64,000 bases of DNA, taken from Streptomyces sp. NBC_01216. GTDB lineage: Bacteria; Actinomycetota; Actinomycetes; Streptomycetales; Streptomycetaceae. The notes below the pieces were generated by a model. The model was not told the DNA's origin and ran no database searches. It saw only the letters and a program-made list of their open reading frames with translations. Below are positions 12,979 through 40,321 of this stretch, one piece after another. A program made the translations under genes and the position numbers. The stretch spans positions 5,208,001 through 5,272,000 of the forward strand of contig NZ_CP108677.1 of the NCBI RefSeq assembly GCF_035994945.1, written 5' to 3'. Every line of letters begins with the position of its first letter. Within the stretch, counting starts at the first letter, position 1.

Positions 12979-14199
12979 CTACGCGCGTATGTTCCCCTCG
13001 GCGCCGGAGATTCCACGGCGGCAGCCGCCGTCGGCGCCCGCGCAGGTCAGATCCTGGTACGCCCCCACCCCTATCGCGGCGAAGTTGTCGAGGCTCTCGG
13101 TACCCGGCTCGAAGTATCCGGCGTGGCCGGCCGCCCCGGCGGCCGAGAGCAGGCGCGCCCCGAACTCGGGCGCCACCGGGTCCGCTCCGTGCCCGACCCC
13201 GCCGACCTCCAGGTTGGGCACGTCCCGGATCCAGTCGTCCGCGTCCCGCATCGCCCACACCCGGGCGCGGGTGGACAGTTCGGCCGCGCTGTCCACCCGC
13301 ATACCGGGAGATCCGGCCACCGCCATGTCCGTCACCCGGGCGGGCAGCCGGTGCGCGGCGACCCCGCAGAGCACCGAGCCGTAGCTGTGGCAGAACAGGG
13401 CGATGCGCGAGGTGCCCGGCAGGGCGTCGGTCATCTCCACGAGGCGTACCGCGCCGTTCTCGGCGAGCCGGCCCAGGGCGGCGTCGATGCCGAGCCCGAC
13501 GGGCGCGGTGTAGTCGGCCCAGGCGATGACGGCGGTGCCGGAGGCCGGTGCCGCGCTGCGCTCCGCCGCGTACAAGGATTCGGCCATTCCGGCGGGGGCC
13601 GTGTACCTGCCGTGGGTCTTCTGGAAGGTCAGGAGGTTGGTGTCGACCCCTGGCACGATCACCGACACCCTTCGCGCCCGGTCCAGATCGCCCAGAACCT
13701 CGGCCGTCCGGCCCGGGCCGGTCGGATCGAAGGCCAGGATCTGGCGGCCACGCCGCATCAGCGACATGAAGCGGTGCACCCGGCGCAGGGCCTCGTGCCG
13801 TCCGGCGGTGTTCAGCCGCGGGTCGTCGACCCGGCCCCGCTCGGCGGCGAGCGCGCGGGCGAGGGAGAGGCGGTTGGCCCGGTAACGCAAGGTGACGGGC
13901 GCTCCGTTGAGGTTGCCGACGACCAGTGGGTGCGCGTCGGCGAGCCGGGTCCCCGAGGAGGGGCCTATGGAGTCGAAGAACGCGGCGATCCTCGGGGCGG
14001 GGGAAGCCGGGTCGGGGAGCGCCCGCTGACCGATCCGCCCGTGCGCCCACGCATTGAGCGCACGGGCCCGGAGGTCCCCTGGCCCGCGGTGATGCCGGAC
14101 CGTCGTCCAGCCGGTGGTCGCCAGAAGCACGAACACGACGGCCAGCGCGAGCAGCGCGCGCCCGACCGGAAGAGTGGGGGAGGAGTCGAAGGAAGTCAC
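12979..14199 (-). CDS. DUF1023 alpha/beta hydrolase, membrane-anchored or secreted
   Basis: 406 residues with one N-terminal hydrophobic helix (about 13-32). The alpha/beta hydrolase core has the nucleophile elbow CHSYGS (G-x-S-x-G variant) after RIALF, an oxyanion region near VSVIVPGVDTN, and the family C-terminus with DDWIRDVPNLEVGGVGHGADP supplying acid and His. The YFEPGTESL box near the end is characteristic of actinobacterial DUF1023 proteins. Substrate is unknown; a lipase or esterase acting outside the membrane is likely. Confidence 0.88.
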   Translation of the reverse strand: MTSFDSSPTLPVGRALLALAVVFVLLATTGWTTVRHHRGPGDLRARALNAWAHGRIGQRALPDPASPAPRIAAFFDSIGPSSGTRLADAHPLVVGNLNGAPVTLRYRANRLSLARALAAERGRVDDPRLNTAGRHEALRRVHRFMSLMRRGRQILAFDPTGPGRTAEVLGDLDRARRVSVIVPGVDTNLLTFQKTHGRYTAPAGMAESLYAAERSAAPASGTAVIAWADYTAPVGLGIDAALGRLAENGAVRLVEMTDALPGTSRIALFCHSYGSVLCGVAAHRLPARVTDMAVAGSPGMRVDSAAELSTRARVWAMRDADDWIRDVPNLEVGGVGHGADPVAPEFGARLLSAAGAAGHAGYFEPGTESLDNFAAIGVGAYQDLTCAGADGGCRRGISGAEGNIRA

Positions 14200-14473
14200 T
14201 CCGGCACACCCTAGGAGACCCGCCCGGCGCGCCGGACGGGTGGGTGACGGGGATCACATGACGATCGGCGGCGAGGTCACGTTCCGTGTGTACGGGCACA
14301 CGCCTCGCGCGCCCCGGTTCACCGTCGCCGAGGCCGTTGGACCGGCGATGTCGGCCTGTGGAGCGCGGGTGAGCCGGCACTCGCCCCGGCGTAGCGCGGA
14401 GAGGCGGGAACCCGCTGAGACGGTCAGGCGACCGTGGCGGGAATTCCCGGGCCTTGATCCGGGGATTCGGAAG

Positions 14474-15103
14474 TCAAGAGCGCCAGTCGGCCACCAGCGC
14501 CGGACCCAGCTGGTCCAGGTGACGTCCCGTGAGTTCGCGCATCGCTTCGAGAGTCGGGTCGCCGCCCCGTCCCCACAGTTGGCCGGTCACCCGCATCACG
14601 CCGCTGAACGCCGCCACGGCGACCCGTGGGCGCGGGTCCTCGTCCACGTCCAGGCCCTCGCGCTCGGCGATGAGCCGGGCGATGCTCTCCTCCATCTCGG
14701 CGGAGCGTCGCAGGTGGGTGGCGAGGAGCGCCGGAGTCGACTCGATCATCCGGAAGGTCCGCAGGTACAGGTCGACCGGCACGACCTCCATGACCGCCTC
14801 GCCGATGGTGTTCCAGGCGCAGAGCACCGCGTTGCGCATCGCGTCGAGCGGGCCTTCCTCGGCGGGACGCTCGGCCAGGGCCCGGACGAAGCGTTCCTCC
14901 ACCATCTGCTGGACGGCGAAGGCGACCTCCTCCTTGGAGGCGAAGTACCGGAAGAAGGTGCGCTGCGAGACCTCGACCGCCTCGGTGATCTCGTCCACGG
15001 TGGTCTGCTCGTACCCCTGGGACGTGAACAGTTCGAGAGCCACCCGCAGCAGTGCGTCCCTGGTGCGCTGCTTCTTCCGTTCCCGCAGGCCGGAAACCGT
15101 CAC
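14474..15103 (-). CDS. TetR-family repressor, probable regulator of the divergent exporter
   Basis: 209 residues. The N-terminal helix-turn-helix (RDALLRVALELFTSQGYEQTTVDEI then VSQRTFFRYFASKEEV) is classic TetR; the C-terminal ligand domain is of the TetR_C group common beside drug exporters. It is divergent from a DHA2 exporter with 125 bases between, and that gap holds a 15-bp palindrome inside the exporter promoter. This makes local repression relieved by an exported compound the simplest model (inference). Confidence 0.9.
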   Translation of the reverse strand: MTVSGLRERKKQRTRDALLRVALELFTSQGYEQTTVDEITEAVEVSQRTFFRYFASKEEVAFAVQQMVEERFVRALAERPAEEGPLDAMRNAVLCAWNTIGEAVMEVVPVDLYLRTFRMIESTPALLATHLRRSAEMEESIARLIAEREGLDVDEDPRPRVAVAAFSGVMRVTGQLWGRGGDPTLEAMRELTGRHLDQLGPALVADWRS

Positions 15104-34653: not shown

Positions 34654-34828
34654 GACGATCGAACCCCCTGGTGAAGCGCTGACTGTCCCCTCACGGTAGG
34701 CGCCCCCCGAGCGCGCCTCGATCCGGCGTCCCACCCTCCAGGGGTGGGGATATCCCCCGGGCCCCGGCCACGCACGATCGGTTTGCGGGACCCACCCGTG
34801 GTCCATGTACGCTGTTGCTTCCTTCCAC

Positions 34829-34903
34829 GGGTGCGTAGCTCAGGGGTAGAGCGCTGCTCTTACAAAGCAGATGTCGGCGGTTCGAAACCGTCCGCGCCCA
34901 CCA
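34829..34903 (+). tRNA. tRNA-Val (anticodon UAC), CCA encoded
   Basis: The acceptor arm GGGTGCG (34829-34835) pairs with CGCGCCC (34893-34899), with one G-T pair. The D arm is GCTC-AGGGGTA-GAGC, the anticodon stem CTGCT/AGCAG encloses loop CTTACAA (anticodon TAC), and the T arm is GGCGGTTCGAAACCGTC. Discriminator A34900 is followed by CCA (34901-34903). The 3' part doubles as the left attachment site of an inserted island. Confidence 0.97.
34859..34902 (+). repeat. attL-like 44-bp direct repeat (3' half of tRNA-Val)
   Basis: The 44 bases from the anticodon loop to the second C of CCA are repeated exactly at 36700-36743; the flanking bases differ on both sides. A tRNA 3' half duplicated in direct orientation is the standard footprint of site-specific integration. 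Confidence 0.93.
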
Positions 34904-34917
34904 GCAGGTAGCACGAC

Positions 34918-34948
34918 AAAGGCCCAGGTCACCGGTACTGAGCCTTTT
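34918..34948 (+). terminator. Terminator-like hairpin after tRNA-Val, supplied by the island
   Basis: The stem AAAGGCCCAG / CTGAGCCTTT has one mismatch and a loop of about 10 bases, ending in TTTT. It would end tRNA transcription now that the better hairpin at 36750 has been displaced. Confidence 0.6.
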
Positions 34949-34993
34949 CCAAGCTGGTTTCGTTGACCGCGAGCTGGACAGTCCTGCGCAACG

Positions 34994-35052
34994 ACGAAGC
35001 TCCTGGTAGACGGGTTCTCGACCAAGATCACCCGTGTCTGCCAGGAGCTTCG
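34994..35052. repeat. Inverted repeat upstream of the transposase remnant
   Basis: CGAAGCTCCTGGTAGACGGG and its near-complement (ACCCGTGTCTGCCAGGAGCTTCG, split by about 16 bases) form a long imperfect hairpin just before the transposase start. Streptomyces IS5-type elements often carry such a structure between the IS end and the transposase gene, perhaps limiting its translation. Confidence 0.6.
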
Positions 35053-35053
35053 C

Positions 35054-35558
35054 GTGCTTGTCTATCCGTCTTCGATCGATCTGTCCAGCCGCACCTTGCG
35101 GTTCCTGACCGGGCGGCTGACCGCCAGACGGCAGGACGGCCGGTTTCGGCATCGCGACCGCCTTCCGCTACATACGCGAGGCCGTCGACATCCTGGCCGC
35201 TCTGGCCCCGTCCCTGGCCGAGGCGATGAGGACGATCCGGACGAAGGCGTTCGTCATCCTCGACGGCACTCTGCTGCCGATTGACCGCATCGCCGCTGAC
35301 ACCCCCTACTACTCGGGGAAGCACAAGCGCCATGGCATGAACGTCCAGGTCCTCACCGACCCGTTCGGACGGTTGCTCTGGGCCTCGCCGGCGCTGCCCG
35401 GATCGACTCACGACCTCACCGCCGCACGACAGCACGGCATCATCGAAGCCCTCACCGAAGCAGGACTCGAATGCTGGGCCGACAAGGCGTATCAAGGCGC
35501 CGGCGGACCCGTCCGGGTACCGTTTCGCGGCCGTCGCCTCAAGCGATGGAAGCGCCGC
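35054..35558 (+). pseudogene. IS5-family transposase, internally deleted and truncated
   Basis: The reading begins in one frame (MLVYPSSIDLSSRTLRFLTG, GTG 35054) and continues in another from about 35137 (GFGIATAFRYIREAVDILAAL), with the linking segment missing, consistent with an internal deletion. The DDE_4 domain follows with the first two acidic residues (VILDGTLLPIDRIA and GSTHDLTAARQHG) and WADKAYQGAGG, then stops after RRLKRWKRR. The C-terminal part with the catalytic Glu is absent. No intact IS right end was found. Nonfunctional. Confidence 0.88.
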
Positions 35559-35610
35559 CGAGGATGCACAACCGACATGGGTCGTCAGCGCTCCGGCGTA
35601 CCTTCTCGGC

Positions 35611-36018
35611 ATGGCGAATAGACCCCCTGAGAACTGGCGTGCCTGGATGGCGGAGGTGGCCCGCGATGTCGAGGCCGGGATCTTGGCGCCCGAGTGTGCC
35701 GGGACGGCGGAGATGTACCCCGAGTCCTTGCTGAGGGCGACGGACTCGGCGCTAGAGGCGTTCGAGGCGGAGATGCGGGTGCTCGTGGAGCCTTCTGACG
35801 AAGCGCTCTTCGGGGTGATCGAGAAGGTTGTTCTCGCGCTCAATGCTGTCGACGCCGACGCTAGCCACGGTGGCGCCGGCTACTGCACCGAAGAGCGGGA
35901 GCAACTGTGCGAGTACATCGATCGCACCTTGGGCGAGCACGGTGTGGACGTGGCCGCTCTGGCGGCGAGGAGGGGCATCAATCGTGCCGAGATCACGGAC
36001 GCGTGGCGCGACTGGTGA
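35611..36018 (+). CDS. Unknown 135-residue island protein
   Basis: Not recognised. A soluble, acidic, mostly helical protein: MANRPPENWRAWMAEVARDVEAGI at the start, a middle segment with SLLRATDSALEAFEAEM, and a C-terminal part (YCTEEREQLCEYIDRTL then GVDVAALAARRGINRAEITDAWRDW). The final ~26 residues and ~60 bases of 3' flank recur, diverged, at 36873-37012, outside the island. It sits directly before an immunity-type gene, so it may itself be an immunity or defence accessory protein (weak inference). No clear ribosome site. Confidence 0.65.
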   Translation: MANRPPENWRAWMAEVARDVEAGILAPECAGTAEMYPESLLRATDSALEAFEAEMRVLVEPSDEALFGVIEKVVLALNAVDADASHGGAGYCTEEREQLCEYIDRTLGEHGVDVAALAARRGINRAEITDAWRDW

Positions 36019-36103
36019 CCGCAACCTCCTGAGCTTCCGCCGGCTTGCTGCGTGTGAGGGGCAAGCCCCCCGGGCTCCGGAGACCGGTCCGAGCGGCGGC
36101 ATC

Positions 36104-36403
36104 ATGGGTTCCATGACTTCCGGATACGGCCCAGCGCCGATCGAGAGCACTCATGTCACGGCCGCCGTTGAGAGCACTGCGCTCCGCTTTTCCTGGGATG
36201 CCGATGCCCGAATCGAGGTGCGCAATCTCGGGAGCGAGATCGTCATCGAGGCGAATGCTGCGGGTCTCAGGACGCTTGCCAGGCATCTTCTGGTGTTGGC
36301 CGGCGAAGGAGTTCCGGATGGGACCCATCTGCACCTCGATGACGGCAACGGGCTGGAGGAGGGGTCCGCCGGCCTTGTCCTGGAGCGCAGCGACGAAGAG
36401 TGA
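36104..36403 (+). CDS. Imm32-like immunity protein
   Basis: 99 residues from ATG 36104 (Met4 at 36113 is an alternative). The sequence follows the Imm32 pattern: a short beta strand FSWDADARIEVRNLG, then LRTLARHLLVLAGEGVPDGTHLHLDDG and EEGSAGLVLER near the C-terminus. Imm32 proteins are predicted to neutralise toxins of polymorphic contact-dependent or secreted systems. No cognate toxin is in the window, so this is an orphan carried by the island. Upstream Asp/Glu content and codon use do not differ strongly from the host. Confidence 0.68.
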   Translation: MGSMTSGYGPAPIESTHVTAAVESTALRFSWDADARIEVRNLGSEIVIEANAAGLRTLARHLLVLAGEGVPDGTHLHLDDGNGLEEGSAGLVLERSDEE

Positions 36404-36554
36404 CCGTGCTCCTCGCGGTTGTCTCGGGGGCTGACATCCGAACTGGCATCAACTACGGCAGATGACGGCCGTCGTACGCGGTCTGCCGGGGCAGGGGTGA
36501 CAGCGGCCCGCTGCTGATCGGGGCACGGTGGACGAAGTCACGAGGCAGGTGTCG

Positions 36555-36584
36555 GTGCCAGGGCCCGTGCCAGAACCGTGCCAG
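36555..36584 (+). repeat. Three GTGCCAG repeats, possible integrase arm sites
   Basis: GTGCCAG occurs at 36555, 36567 and 36578, spaced 12 and 11 bases, about 115 bases inside the right attachment repeat. Short direct repeats at this distance from att are typical arm-type binding sites of tyrosine integrases in actinomycete elements. No integrase gene is left. Confidence 0.5.
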
Positions 36585-36699
36585 ATCGAGCAGTCAGCCA
36601 CGGTCAATCGGGGTCCGCAGCGGGGCAAGCAAGAGCGGGGCGCCGAGCAGCGCTGTACGCCCGTTGACCAGCCAAGACCGCTCTGTGATCAGCGCCAGG

Positions 36700-36743
36700 C
36701 TTACAAAGCAGATGTCGGCGGTTCGAAACCGTCCGCGCCCACC
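36700..36743 (+). repeat. attR-like 44-bp direct repeat
   Basis: Exact copy of tRNA-Val bases 34859-34902. The 5' half of a tRNA is missing here, so it is not a second tRNA gene. Confidence 0.93.
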
Positions 36744-36749
36744 GGTACG

Positions 36750-36782
36750 AAGGCCCCGGACCGATCATGGTCCGGGGCCTTT
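36750..36782 (+). terminator. Probable original terminator of tRNA-Val
   Basis: The stem AAGGCCCCGGACC / GGTCCGGGGCCTT (13 base pairs) with loop GATCAT starts 6 bases after the right att copy. That is where a tRNA terminator would be before island insertion. Confidence 0.88.
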
Positions 36783-36872
36783 GACATCTACTTCTGACAC
36801 CAACGGGGACGGTCGATCACGACCGGGCCTCCTCGTGAGCAGCCGGTCCACGCGACTCACGGCCGCGCACCG

Positions 36873-36948
36873 TGTGGACGTGGCCGCTCTGGCGGTGAGG
36901 AGAGCCATCAACCGCGACGAGATCACCGACGCCTGGCGCGACTGGTGA
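36873..36948 (+). pseudogene. Tail fragment of a homologue of the island's unknown gene
   Basis: About 25 codons read VDVAALAVRRAINRDEITDAWRDW and a TGA, matching the end of the gene at 35611-36018 with several substitutions. Similarity continues past the stop for about 60 bases (to about 37012). No 5' part or start codon is present. It lies outside the att repeats, so it predates or is independent of the present island. The rest of 36783-37198 shows no gene. Confidence 0.75.
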
Positions 36949-37198
36949 CCACGGCTTCCCGTATTTCCCGCGGCGTTCTGTGTGCGAGGACACGTCCCCC
37001 GGCTGATGCCAACGACGGCGGATGGCGGCGGTCGCACCCGGGTTGCCGTGTCGGAGAGGGTCCCGGTCCGCGATGCCGCCGGGGTCCGCCACAACGGGTT
37101 CTCGCGTCCGGGCCATGCGCGTTCCGGTGCCGACTCCGGGTGGAGCGGGAGTGGTTGGGTGAGAACACGAGGTGATCTGTATGTGATCGGATAGGGCC

Positions 37199-37762
37199 AT
37201 GAGCAACCGGACCCTGTATCTGTTCTCCAGCGCCGCACCGCCGTTGTTCGACGTCGCACGCGTCATCGAGGACGCGCAGGCCGACGGCTGGGACGTCTGC
37301 CTCGGTCTCACCCCCGCGGCCGCCCGGTGGCTGGAGGGCTCCCTCGACGGCCTCGCCGCGCTCACCGGCCACCCGGTCCGGTGGGAGTACGAGCCGCCCG
37401 GCCGGCCGGACCCGTGGCCGCAGGCGGACGCGATCCTCGTCGCGCCGGCCACGTTTGACACGGTGAACGCCTGGGCGCTCGGGCTGACCGACAACTTCGT
37501 GGTCGGGGTGGTCGCCGAGGGCATCGGAAAGGGTGTGCCGATGGCGGTGATGCCGTGTGTGAGTGACGCTCACGTGCGGCACCCGCAGTTCGAGAGGTCG
37601 TTGGAGATCCTGCAGAGTGCCGGGGTGAGCGTGCTGTACGGCGAGGGCGGGTTCCTGCCGGCCCGGCCCGGCCCGGACGACCCGGCCGCGTACCCGTGGC
37701 GGGCGGCGCTGGACGCCGCGCTGAGGCTGCGTGTGCGGCGCCCCGAGCCGGAGGGCGTCTGA
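37199..37762 (+). CDS. Flavoprotein of the PPC-decarboxylase-like family
   Basis: 187 residues. A Rossmann-like flavodoxin fold starting TLYLFSSAAPPLFDVARVIEDAQADGWDV, with ADAILVAPATFDTVNAWALGLTDN, the FMN-phosphate and substrate segment of HFCD flavoproteins (PPC decarboxylase, EpiD, MrsD). The later GVPMAVMPCV matches the family's conserved loop. Such proteins oxidatively decarboxylate Cys-containing substrates, but many Streptomyces members stand alone and have unknown substrates. It follows the island's flank and is not part of it. Confidence 0.8.
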   Translation: MSNRTLYLFSSAAPPLFDVARVIEDAQADGWDVCLGLTPAAARWLEGSLDGLAALTGHPVRWEYEPPGRPDPWPQADAILVAPATFDTVNAWALGLTDNFVVGVVAEGIGKGVPMAVMPCVSDAHVRHPQFERSLEILQSAGVSVLYGEGGFLPARPGPDDPAAYPWRAALDAALRLRVRRPEPEGV

Positions 37763-37880
37763 CCCCGGGGCCGGCGGGCCGACCCCTGCCGGGTACCCGC
37801 CCCACGATGTGGGAGCCCGCGCTCGCTCGGGGGCGGGGTGGCGGTGACCTTTCGGTGGATTCCTGCCGAGGGGCTCGCGG

Positions 37881-38393
37881 TCAGTCGGCCACGCCCAGGT
37901 CCTCACGCATGATCCGGCGCATGGCGGTGAGCGCGGGCTCCGCCGCCTTCAGGGCCTCGAGCGCCCGGGCGGCGCTCTCTCCTTCCCTGGAGATGCCGCG
38001 GTCGATGCGCTTGGCGGTGGCGTCGACGGCGGCAAGGACGGTGTTCACCTCCCGAGAGGCGCTGAGCACGACCTCGGGGACGATCATCTGGGCCTCGGCG
38101 TAGCGGTCCCGGTAGTCGCGCCGTGCCTGCTCGACCTGGGCGCGGTCCTCGTCCGTGTAGACGTCGTCCCGCAGGCGGTGAAGAGCGTCCTTCAACAGGG
38201 TGTGGAAGTGGCGGGAGGCGCGATTCATCCCGGTGTACGCGTTGCGCCGCTCCTCGAAGAGCCTTCGCTCGTGTTCGGCCCGGCTCTCCTCGGTCCGCTG
38301 GCGTTTCGTCATCCACCTCGTGACCACCGGCGCGAGGAGCGTGCCCAGCACTCCGACGACGGCGGTCACCATGGCGGCGGTCGTGGCACCCAT
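37881..38393 (-). CDS. Small membrane-anchored helical protein, unknown function
   Basis: 170 residues. One N-terminal helix (about 5-27, AAMVTAVVGVLGTLLAPVVTRWM) is followed by a long charged coiled coil (RTEESRAEHERRLFEERRNAYTGMNRASRHFHTLLKDALHRL and onward). This architecture is common among Streptomyces proteins of unknown function. No catalytic motifs are seen. Confidence 0.75.
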   Translation of the reverse strand: MGATTAAMVTAVVGVLGTLLAPVVTRWMTKRQRTEESRAEHERRLFEERRNAYTGMNRASRHFHTLLKDALHRLRDDVYTDEDRAQVEQARRDYRDRYAEAQMIVPEVVLSASREVNTVLAAVDATAKRIDRGISREGESAARALEALKAAEPALTAMRRIMREDLGVAD

Positions 38394-39562: not shown

Positions 39563-40321
39563 TCACGCGCCGAAGTCGTACTCCAGGACGTAGGACGCCG
39601 AGTCCAGGGTCATCTCGTTGAGCTCCACCGCGACTCCGTCGGCGGCGAAGGCCGTGCGGCCGATCAGGATCACCGGGGTGCCGAACCCCAGCGCGAGGCG
39701 TGCGGATTCGTCCGCCGTGGGCATCCGGCATCGGATCTCCTCGCGGAAGTGCACGGGCTGGTGGCCGAGTTCGGCCAGCCGGGCATAGGTGCCGCCGGGG
39801 CCCGTGTCGGGAGACGCGATCGGGGTGCCCCGCGTGAGGCGGGCCGGCAGGTACGACACCGACAGCAGCACCGGCTTGCCGTCCAGTACGAAGCGGCGAC
39901 TGCGCACGCAGACCCGTTCGTCCGGCCGCAGGCCCAGCGCCGCGGCGGCCCGAGCACCGGGCGTCGCCTCGGACACCTCGATCTGGTCCACCAGCAGGGC
40001 ACGGTCCTCGATGTCCGCCGACCAGACCGAGCGGCCCATGCCCCAGTGCTCCTGGGCGAGCCGGGGGATGCCCCGCCGGCGCAGCGGGCGGAAGGCGCGG
40101 ACGAAGACGCCGGCGCCCTTGCGGGCCTCCGCGAGGCCCTCGTTGCGCAGGACGGACAACGCCTGCCGGGCCGTCATCCGGGCCACCTCGTAGGTGGTCA
40201 TGAGGTCGTTCTCGCCGGGGAGGCGGTCGCCCGGGGCGAAGGCGCCTGACTGGATGGCGGTTCTCAACTCGTCGGCGATGCGCTGGTACTTGGGCCGACG
40301 ACCGCTGTCCTGGTCAGTCAT
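39563..40321 (-). CDS. GntR/HutC-family regulator with UTRA domain
   Basis: 252 residues. A GntR winged helix fills the first ~75 (YQRIADELRTAIQSGAFAPGDRLPGENDLMTTYEVARMTARQALSVLRNEGL). The UTRA ligand domain (about 100-245) includes RSRRFVLDGKPVLLSVSYLPARLT and ends LNEMTLDSASYVLEYDF. HutC-type regulators in Streptomyces sense sugars, amino sugars or developmental signals; the ligand cannot be deduced. It is divergent from a small gene across a region with two matched operators, suggesting it represses both. Confidence 0.92.
   Translation of the reverse strand: MTDQDSGRRPKYQRIADELRTAIQSGAFAPGDRLPGENDLMTTYEVARMTARQALSVLRNEGLAEARKGAGVFVRAFRPLRRRGIPRLAQEHWGMGRSVWSADIEDRALLVDQIEVSEATPGARAAAALGLRPDERVCVRSRRFVLDGKPVLLSVSYLPARLTRGTPIASPDTGPGGTYARLAELGHQPVHFREEIRCRMPTADESARLALGFGTPVILIGRTAFAADGVAVELNEMTLDSASYVLEYDFGA

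Follow-up and report, generated by a model that had tools for sequence, protein, structure and literature searches.

The tRNA-Val gene of Streptomyces sp. NBC_01216 is followed by a 1.84-kb island that is very probably the decayed relic of an actinomycete integrative and conjugative element (AICE), one resembling the cis-mobilizable elements (CIMEs) defined in PMC5704250. Its two ends are homologous to those of an intact AICE inserted in the same tRNA of a related genome (G040), an AICE kind that, together with its alikes, we call type A. The features of the island and of the DNA beyond it are listed in Table 1; the window is the whole 64,000-nucleotide stretch analysed (NZ_CP108677.1, positions 5,208,001 to 5,272,000).

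Table 1. Features at the tRNA-Val locus (positions in the window)
Feature	Position	Strand	Evidence
tRNA-Val (anticodon TAC), intact; 3′ half is the attL core	34829..34903	+	ARAGORN; 75 nt at 100% in other genus genomes
attL core, 44 bp	34859..34902	+	exact repeat; the 44 bp before the terminal A of the tRNA
attL-inner edge of type-A AICE (first part of terminator hairpin)	34903..34941	+	identical to G040/L047 until 34941, then diverges
IS5-family element stub	34939..35559	+	left end present, right end missing; 92 bp missing at 35136/35137 relative to sister copy
ORF135, intact, unnamed family, 135 aa, predicted all-helical	35611..36018	+	homologues, alignment, dN/dS, model
Imm32 immunity-protein gene, intact, 96 aa	36113..36403	+	PF15566, E 1.2e-17; open relatives; dN/dS
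attR-inner arm region, type-A AICE	36533..36699	+	83-87% in G040, G370, G317, G161, G290
attR core (distal 44-bp copy)	36700..36743	+	exact repeat
attL edge of second, type-B AICE: hairpin 36750-36781 and integrase C-terminal codons	36744..36864	-	92% to G370/L156
Second ORF135 copy, tail, fused to type-B edge	36861..37002	+	80% to island copy
Sequence like that after Imm32 in L168	37010..37056	+	87% to L168 6621-6667; Imm32 missing from second copy

Results

The att cores and the tRNA-Val site

The two exact 44-bp copies are spaced by 1841 bp, in agreement with the first-pass annotation, which had reported that the 3′ half of the tRNA is repeated exactly 1.84 kb away. Searching the genome of the host with a 43-bp pattern taken from the repeat (up to three mismatches) returned these two places only, and the reversed pattern used as control gave zero matches in the same genome. 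The tRNA-Val itself was matched at E ≤ 0.001 in 150 of 150 sampled genus genomes. In the 50 genomes with the closest tRNA match, the 43-bp core pattern (again with up to three mismatches) occurred once in 31 and two to four times in 19, some of the copies in G033, G125 and G126 sitting on other contigs. Relatives free of the island might have been expected to keep both repeats had there been no insertion, and these 31 genomes carry one. One copy need not indicate an empty site, however: some of the 31 retain element edges (for example G071, G028 and G128).

Both ends match intact AICEs in the same tRNA

In G040 a 16.8-kb insertion occupies the same tRNA and both of its ends match the window: positions 34796-34944 are 97% identical to its left end over 149 bp, and positions 36533-36778 are 87% identical to its attR side over 246 bp. 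Read from attL, this element encodes a 378-aa tyrosine integrase (PF00589), a 69-aa helix-turn-helix protein (probably Xis) and RepSA (E 2e-149), followed by a protein with DUF2637 and one of the FtsK/SpoIIIE kind (E 1e-40). The genes int, xis, repSA, tra and spd are given as AICE genes in a passage of PMC4891641. Similar elements are found in G317 (18.6 kb; ends 95% and 87% identical to those of the window) and G161 (15.6 kb; 88% and 85%), their integrases being 95.5% identical to that of G040, and the integrase of G029 is 92.6% identical to it. The first-pass annotation had proposed a search for relatives in which the integrase is intact; G040, G161 and G317 are such relatives, and they share the ends of the island. 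Its reading of a site-specific insertion into tRNA-Val is also borne out.

The AICE gene set of G040 (integrase, RepSA-type initiator, FtsK-type Tra) is absent from the island. Six integrase queries (E 1e-4) found no integrase there, as had been claimed from inspection of the sequence, and no match to rep or tra was obtained within 5.7 kb after the tRNA. The same 5.7 kb gave two weak integrase-like matches (E 3e-4 and 6e-4, with composition correction off) that look like noise. A Pfam scan of the three main island ORFs brought only the IS transposase and Imm32 above cut-off. Elsewhere the host carries two RepSA loci, and its nearest integrases are 46% identical to type A, 47% to type B and 47% to type D, three types that occur at this tRNA.

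The genome G370 has ORF135-Imm32 followed by a type-A attR (85% DNA identity) at the right end of a 14.7-kb interval. The left end of this interval is of type B, its integrase is truncated, and the 39.9 kb fetched to the left contain no tRNA-Val. We found no intact type-A AICE carrying ORF135-Imm32.

Putative arm sites are kept at attR and lost at attL

The arm region before the distal core holds GTGCCAG at 36555, 36567 and 36578 (−145, −133 and −122 from the core), three of the six occurrences on both strands of the 64-kb window. The pair at −133/−122 is also present on the attR side of L047, L159 and L156, the copy at −145 being a third in the window; the attR side of L158 has GTGCCAG at −133 and −8, without that at −122. 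At the other end, 13 loci with a type-A left edge were compared, of which L094 and L159 belong to one genome. GTGCCAG lies at +95/+106 inside attL in eight of them (L047, L158, L159, L094, L097, L113, L088 and L039), at 94/105 in L040 and at 88/99 in L043; L041 has a degenerate pair at 94/105, and L042 and L090 have none on the attL side. The attL-side pair of the intact relatives is absent from the window, where an IS stands in its place. Judged by position and spacing, the GTGCCAG repeats are likely integrase arm sites, in agreement with the first-pass annotation. A search with 171 bp of the arm region gave DNA matches, full or partial, in 143 of 392 genus genomes; most of those listed fall around GTGCCAG (window 36563-36613). 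The region may therefore be an end module common to many AICEs and serving several targets.

The point at which the left edge departs from G040 is the left end of an IS5-family element. A sister copy in the same genome (L166, C1:613059-613777) has a 251-aa transposase gene and is 100% and 98% identical to the stub. The transposase stub matches Pfam DDE_Tnp_4 (E 9e-18), confirming the IS5 remnant noticed earlier. With the NCBIfam IS5 model it gives E 8e-16 but 58 of the 140 bits required, as a fragment would be expected to do. Homology with G370 starts at 35578, close to where the stub stops, and a deletion between the IS interior and ORF135 would explain this.

Cargo genes

The unknown gene of the first-pass annotation, ORF135, is intact and reaches the cut-off of no Pfam or NCBIfam model. 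It has 182 relatives at E ≤ 0.001 and is present in 51 of 392 genus genomes; none of the 120 relatives listed has a domain known to Pfam, and every organism named among them belongs to Streptomyces, Kitasatospora or Actinacidiphila. The predicted structure (mean pLDDT 89.5) gave no informative match in a fold search. The match to ORF135 is split between frames in L105 and L168, and the tail alone is left in L091; sequencing error is possible in these cases.

The second gene, described before as Imm32-like, scores 64 bits against a family cut-off of 27 (PF15566). Its frame is open across the alignment in seven relatives, so that all eight copies compared are open. Two comparisons of ORF135 gave dN/dS of 0.19 and 0.23, and seven of Imm32 gave 0.18-0.33, so that both genes were under purifying selection over the compared history, in which the time since the decay is not set apart. 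Imm32 is linked to the toxins Ntox7, Ntox12 and Ntox37 in the relevant passage of PMC3482391. The island gene shares the Imm32 domain with the proteins of those polymorphic toxin systems but, unlike the systems described there, is an apparent orphan, as no partner toxin was recognised among the Pfam-scanned island ORFs; anything that lay upstream of ORF135 would have been lost in the deletion. We suggest, from its family, that it probably acts as an orphan immunity protein against the toxins of competitors.

Imm32 genes appear over-represented near tRNA-Val. In 50 genomes, 6 of 18 lie within 30 kb downstream of it (G000, G374, G052, G064, G097 and G142), a limit that was chosen after seeing the data and with genes on other contigs scored as not near. 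On the same scoring, 4 of 13 do so once the four genomes picked by similarity (G000, G370, G374 and G317) are left out (binomial 1.6e-7). The Imm32 gene of G370 lies beside an att core, and the 69 kb fetched around it contain no tRNA-Val. Among 30 named loci with a tRNA core, Imm32 is nearby in five (L091, L092, L096, L105 and L116, the last being from the same genome as G374). The literature searched, of incomplete coverage, contained no report of Imm32 at tRNA-Val. L105 (Streptomyces bikiniensis, 13260-14766) is a mirror case, with a transposase remnant, a split ORF135, an intact Imm32, an att core and a type-A edge, and a further Imm32 gene occurs about 1.5 kb from arm-like sequence in G284 (C1:4051738-4053469).

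A second relic beyond the distal core

The DNA just outside the island, at 36744-37056, is element debris that escaped the first reading. Positions 36700-36864 are 92% identical to the type-B attL edge in G370, and the minus strand encodes C-terminal codons of a type-B integrase (VSRVDRLLTRRP compared with VSHVDRLLRSRP), with the stop codon not kept. The first 60 bp after the distal core, with the hairpin, also resemble the DNA after the single-copy tRNA of L089 (90% up to 36810) and therefore cannot decide the matter; it is the next 50 bp that encode the end of the type-B integrase. Since these codons and the tail of a second ORF135 copy both lie beyond the distal core, we conclude that a second relic directly follows the first. 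It probably stems from another element that had its cargo in the same order and lost Imm32 by deletion; no attR of its own was recognised.

This affects the hairpin that had been taken for the likely original terminator of the tRNA, displaced past the distal copy. The hairpin is indeed there (arms 36750-36762 and 36769-36781), but an original chromosomal origin is not required, because the flank matches a type-B attL edge. Further out, at 37199-38393, a flavoprotein gene and a 170-aa gene vary among relatives in their distance and orientation from tRNA-Val. The true chromosomal flank may therefore start only near the GntR gene at 39563.

Other small intervals at tRNA-Val

We surveyed att-bounded intervals at 22 fetched loci, allowing up to 6 mismatches in 36 core positions. 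Fourteen intervals of less than 6 kb were found in 13 genomes, this island included, and the six queries found a full-length integrase in none of the 14; fragments of 16 to 263 aa survive in five. Among intervals above 9 kb, 10 of 11 have a full-length integrase. The loci were mostly picked for a second core or matching ends, so these proportions are biased and are not population estimates; the survey left out intervals of 40-63 kb in five genomes and other recombinase types. In or beside relics at tRNA-Val there are HNH nucleases at four loci (L032, L034, L038 and L161, in G114, G148, G099 and G075), 55-84% identical pairwise over their aligned parts; three of the four were scanned and all three match methyl-directed type IV restriction models. 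G374 and G385 have an AspBHI-type nuclease beside an att core instead.

Discussion

The comparison with G040 and its alikes suggests the following course of events. The first step is shown by the comparison: the tyrosine integrase of a type-A AICE recombined the element into the 44-bp 3′ half of tRNA-Val, so that the tRNA stayed whole and a second core came to lie at the far end. An IS5-family copy would then have inserted 36-39 nt inside attL, and a deletion running from the IS interior to just upstream of ORF135 would have removed int, xis, rep and tra, a step for which the junctions are seen. Finally, as the type-B edge suggests, another AICE would have integrated at the distal core (accretion) and would in turn have been reduced by deletion to its edge and a small part of the same cargo. 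Only ORF135 and Imm32 are probably still active. The island would be unable to excise itself and, since the attL-side arm sites are lost too, is likely to move only by homologous recombination between the cores or with a new AICE arriving at a core.

The first-pass annotation had left it open whether the island is a decayed element or a passive one mobilised by a relative. We favour decay because the attL-side GTGCCAG pair is absent, the left edge stops at the IS end and the host has no close integrase. A passive, non-autonomous mini-element that relied on a type-A AICE integrase acting in trans for its excision and integration would account for the identical 44-bp cores, for the conserved attR arm region and for the att-bounded intervals of less than 6 kb without a full-length integrase in twelve other genomes (a biased sample). 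It is nevertheless improbable: the attL-side arm sites are missing, the host is without a close integrase, and the small intervals, unlike one another in their ends and cargo, retain pieces of integrase in 5 of 14 cases, which points to separate decay. Against the reading as an AICE relic stand the type-A edges of L042 and L090, which are also without the attL pair, the attR side of L158 with one of the −133/−122 sites, and the lack, among the genomes compared, of an intact type-A AICE that carries ORF135-Imm32. We can hardly credit a derivation of the distal copy from a second tRNA gene or from a local tandem duplication. Apart from the exact repeat itself nothing speaks for it, whereas the copy begins in the anticodon arm with no tRNA 5′ half, the approximately 167 bp before it are 83-87% identical to the ends of integrated elements, and ARAGORN finds one tRNA in the window.

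A different question is where the cargo came from. ORF135-Imm32 may have belonged to the chromosome beside tRNA-Val from early on and have become enclosed between att cores through AICE insertion and accretion (gene capture), rather than being original AICE cargo; this would be compatible with the island being an AICE relic, and we regard it as possible though rather doubtful. Counting against the relic reading as such, in four species (L044, L091, L092 and L096) Imm32 lies close to tRNA-Val and no att was found behind it, and so the ORF135-Imm32 cargo may be an older resident. The same four loci are without a clear type-A or type-B integrase stub (weak matches only, with composition correction off). 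The second ORF135 tail lying without Imm32 outside the distal core and the over-representation of Imm32 genes near tRNA-Val point in the same direction. Against capture, the Imm32 genes of the window, G370, G374 and L105 have an att core to their right and adjoin arm regions of two types, as cargo of the right end would.

Taken as a decayed type-A AICE, the island belongs to an established class of relics, with comparable leftovers at the same tRNA in some relatives. As in the CIMEs described in passages of PMC5704250, an att core stands at either end, the genes for integration and transfer are lost (the searches for integrase, rep and tra being negative), and a decayed element lies in tandem, as by accretion, a past second insertion at the distal core being suggested by the sequence there. 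Both 44-bp cores are exact and the attR arms are kept. The island differs from the CIMEs of that description in being very small (1.84 kb) and in having lost the attL arm sites (the GTGCCAG pair) too, and its cis-mobilisation is hypothetical. CIMEs also appear in passages of PMC8369830 and PMC4891641. The latter has the CIME XSAM1 of S. ambofaciens, which lies next to the AICE pSAM2 and, at 42 kb, differs from the island in size; the likeness is in this arrangement of CIME and AICE in Streptomyces. AICE03 of PMC9513070 lies in tRNA-Val between 46-nt repeats and so shares its target and a similar repeat length with the island, whereas the island is without int, rep and tra. The same source describes accretion of AICEs, with a shared remnant, at a tRNA-Arg site.

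We put forward, as a speculation that is more likely wrong than right, that single immunity or restriction genes are stored over long times in the AICE relics at tRNA-Val(UAC). Selection would keep them there after loss of the backbone, and later AICEs at the same cores would re-acquire Imm32 (and methyl-directed HNH nucleases), so that the tRNA would serve as a place where orphan immunity genes are exchanged. The island shows a conjugative element shrunk to two att cores and cargo, and it would escape annotation that relies on finding an integrase. Should the excess of Imm32 at tRNA-Val hold in an unbiased sample, the locus would offer a test of whether orphan immunity genes persist longer than the elements that carried them.
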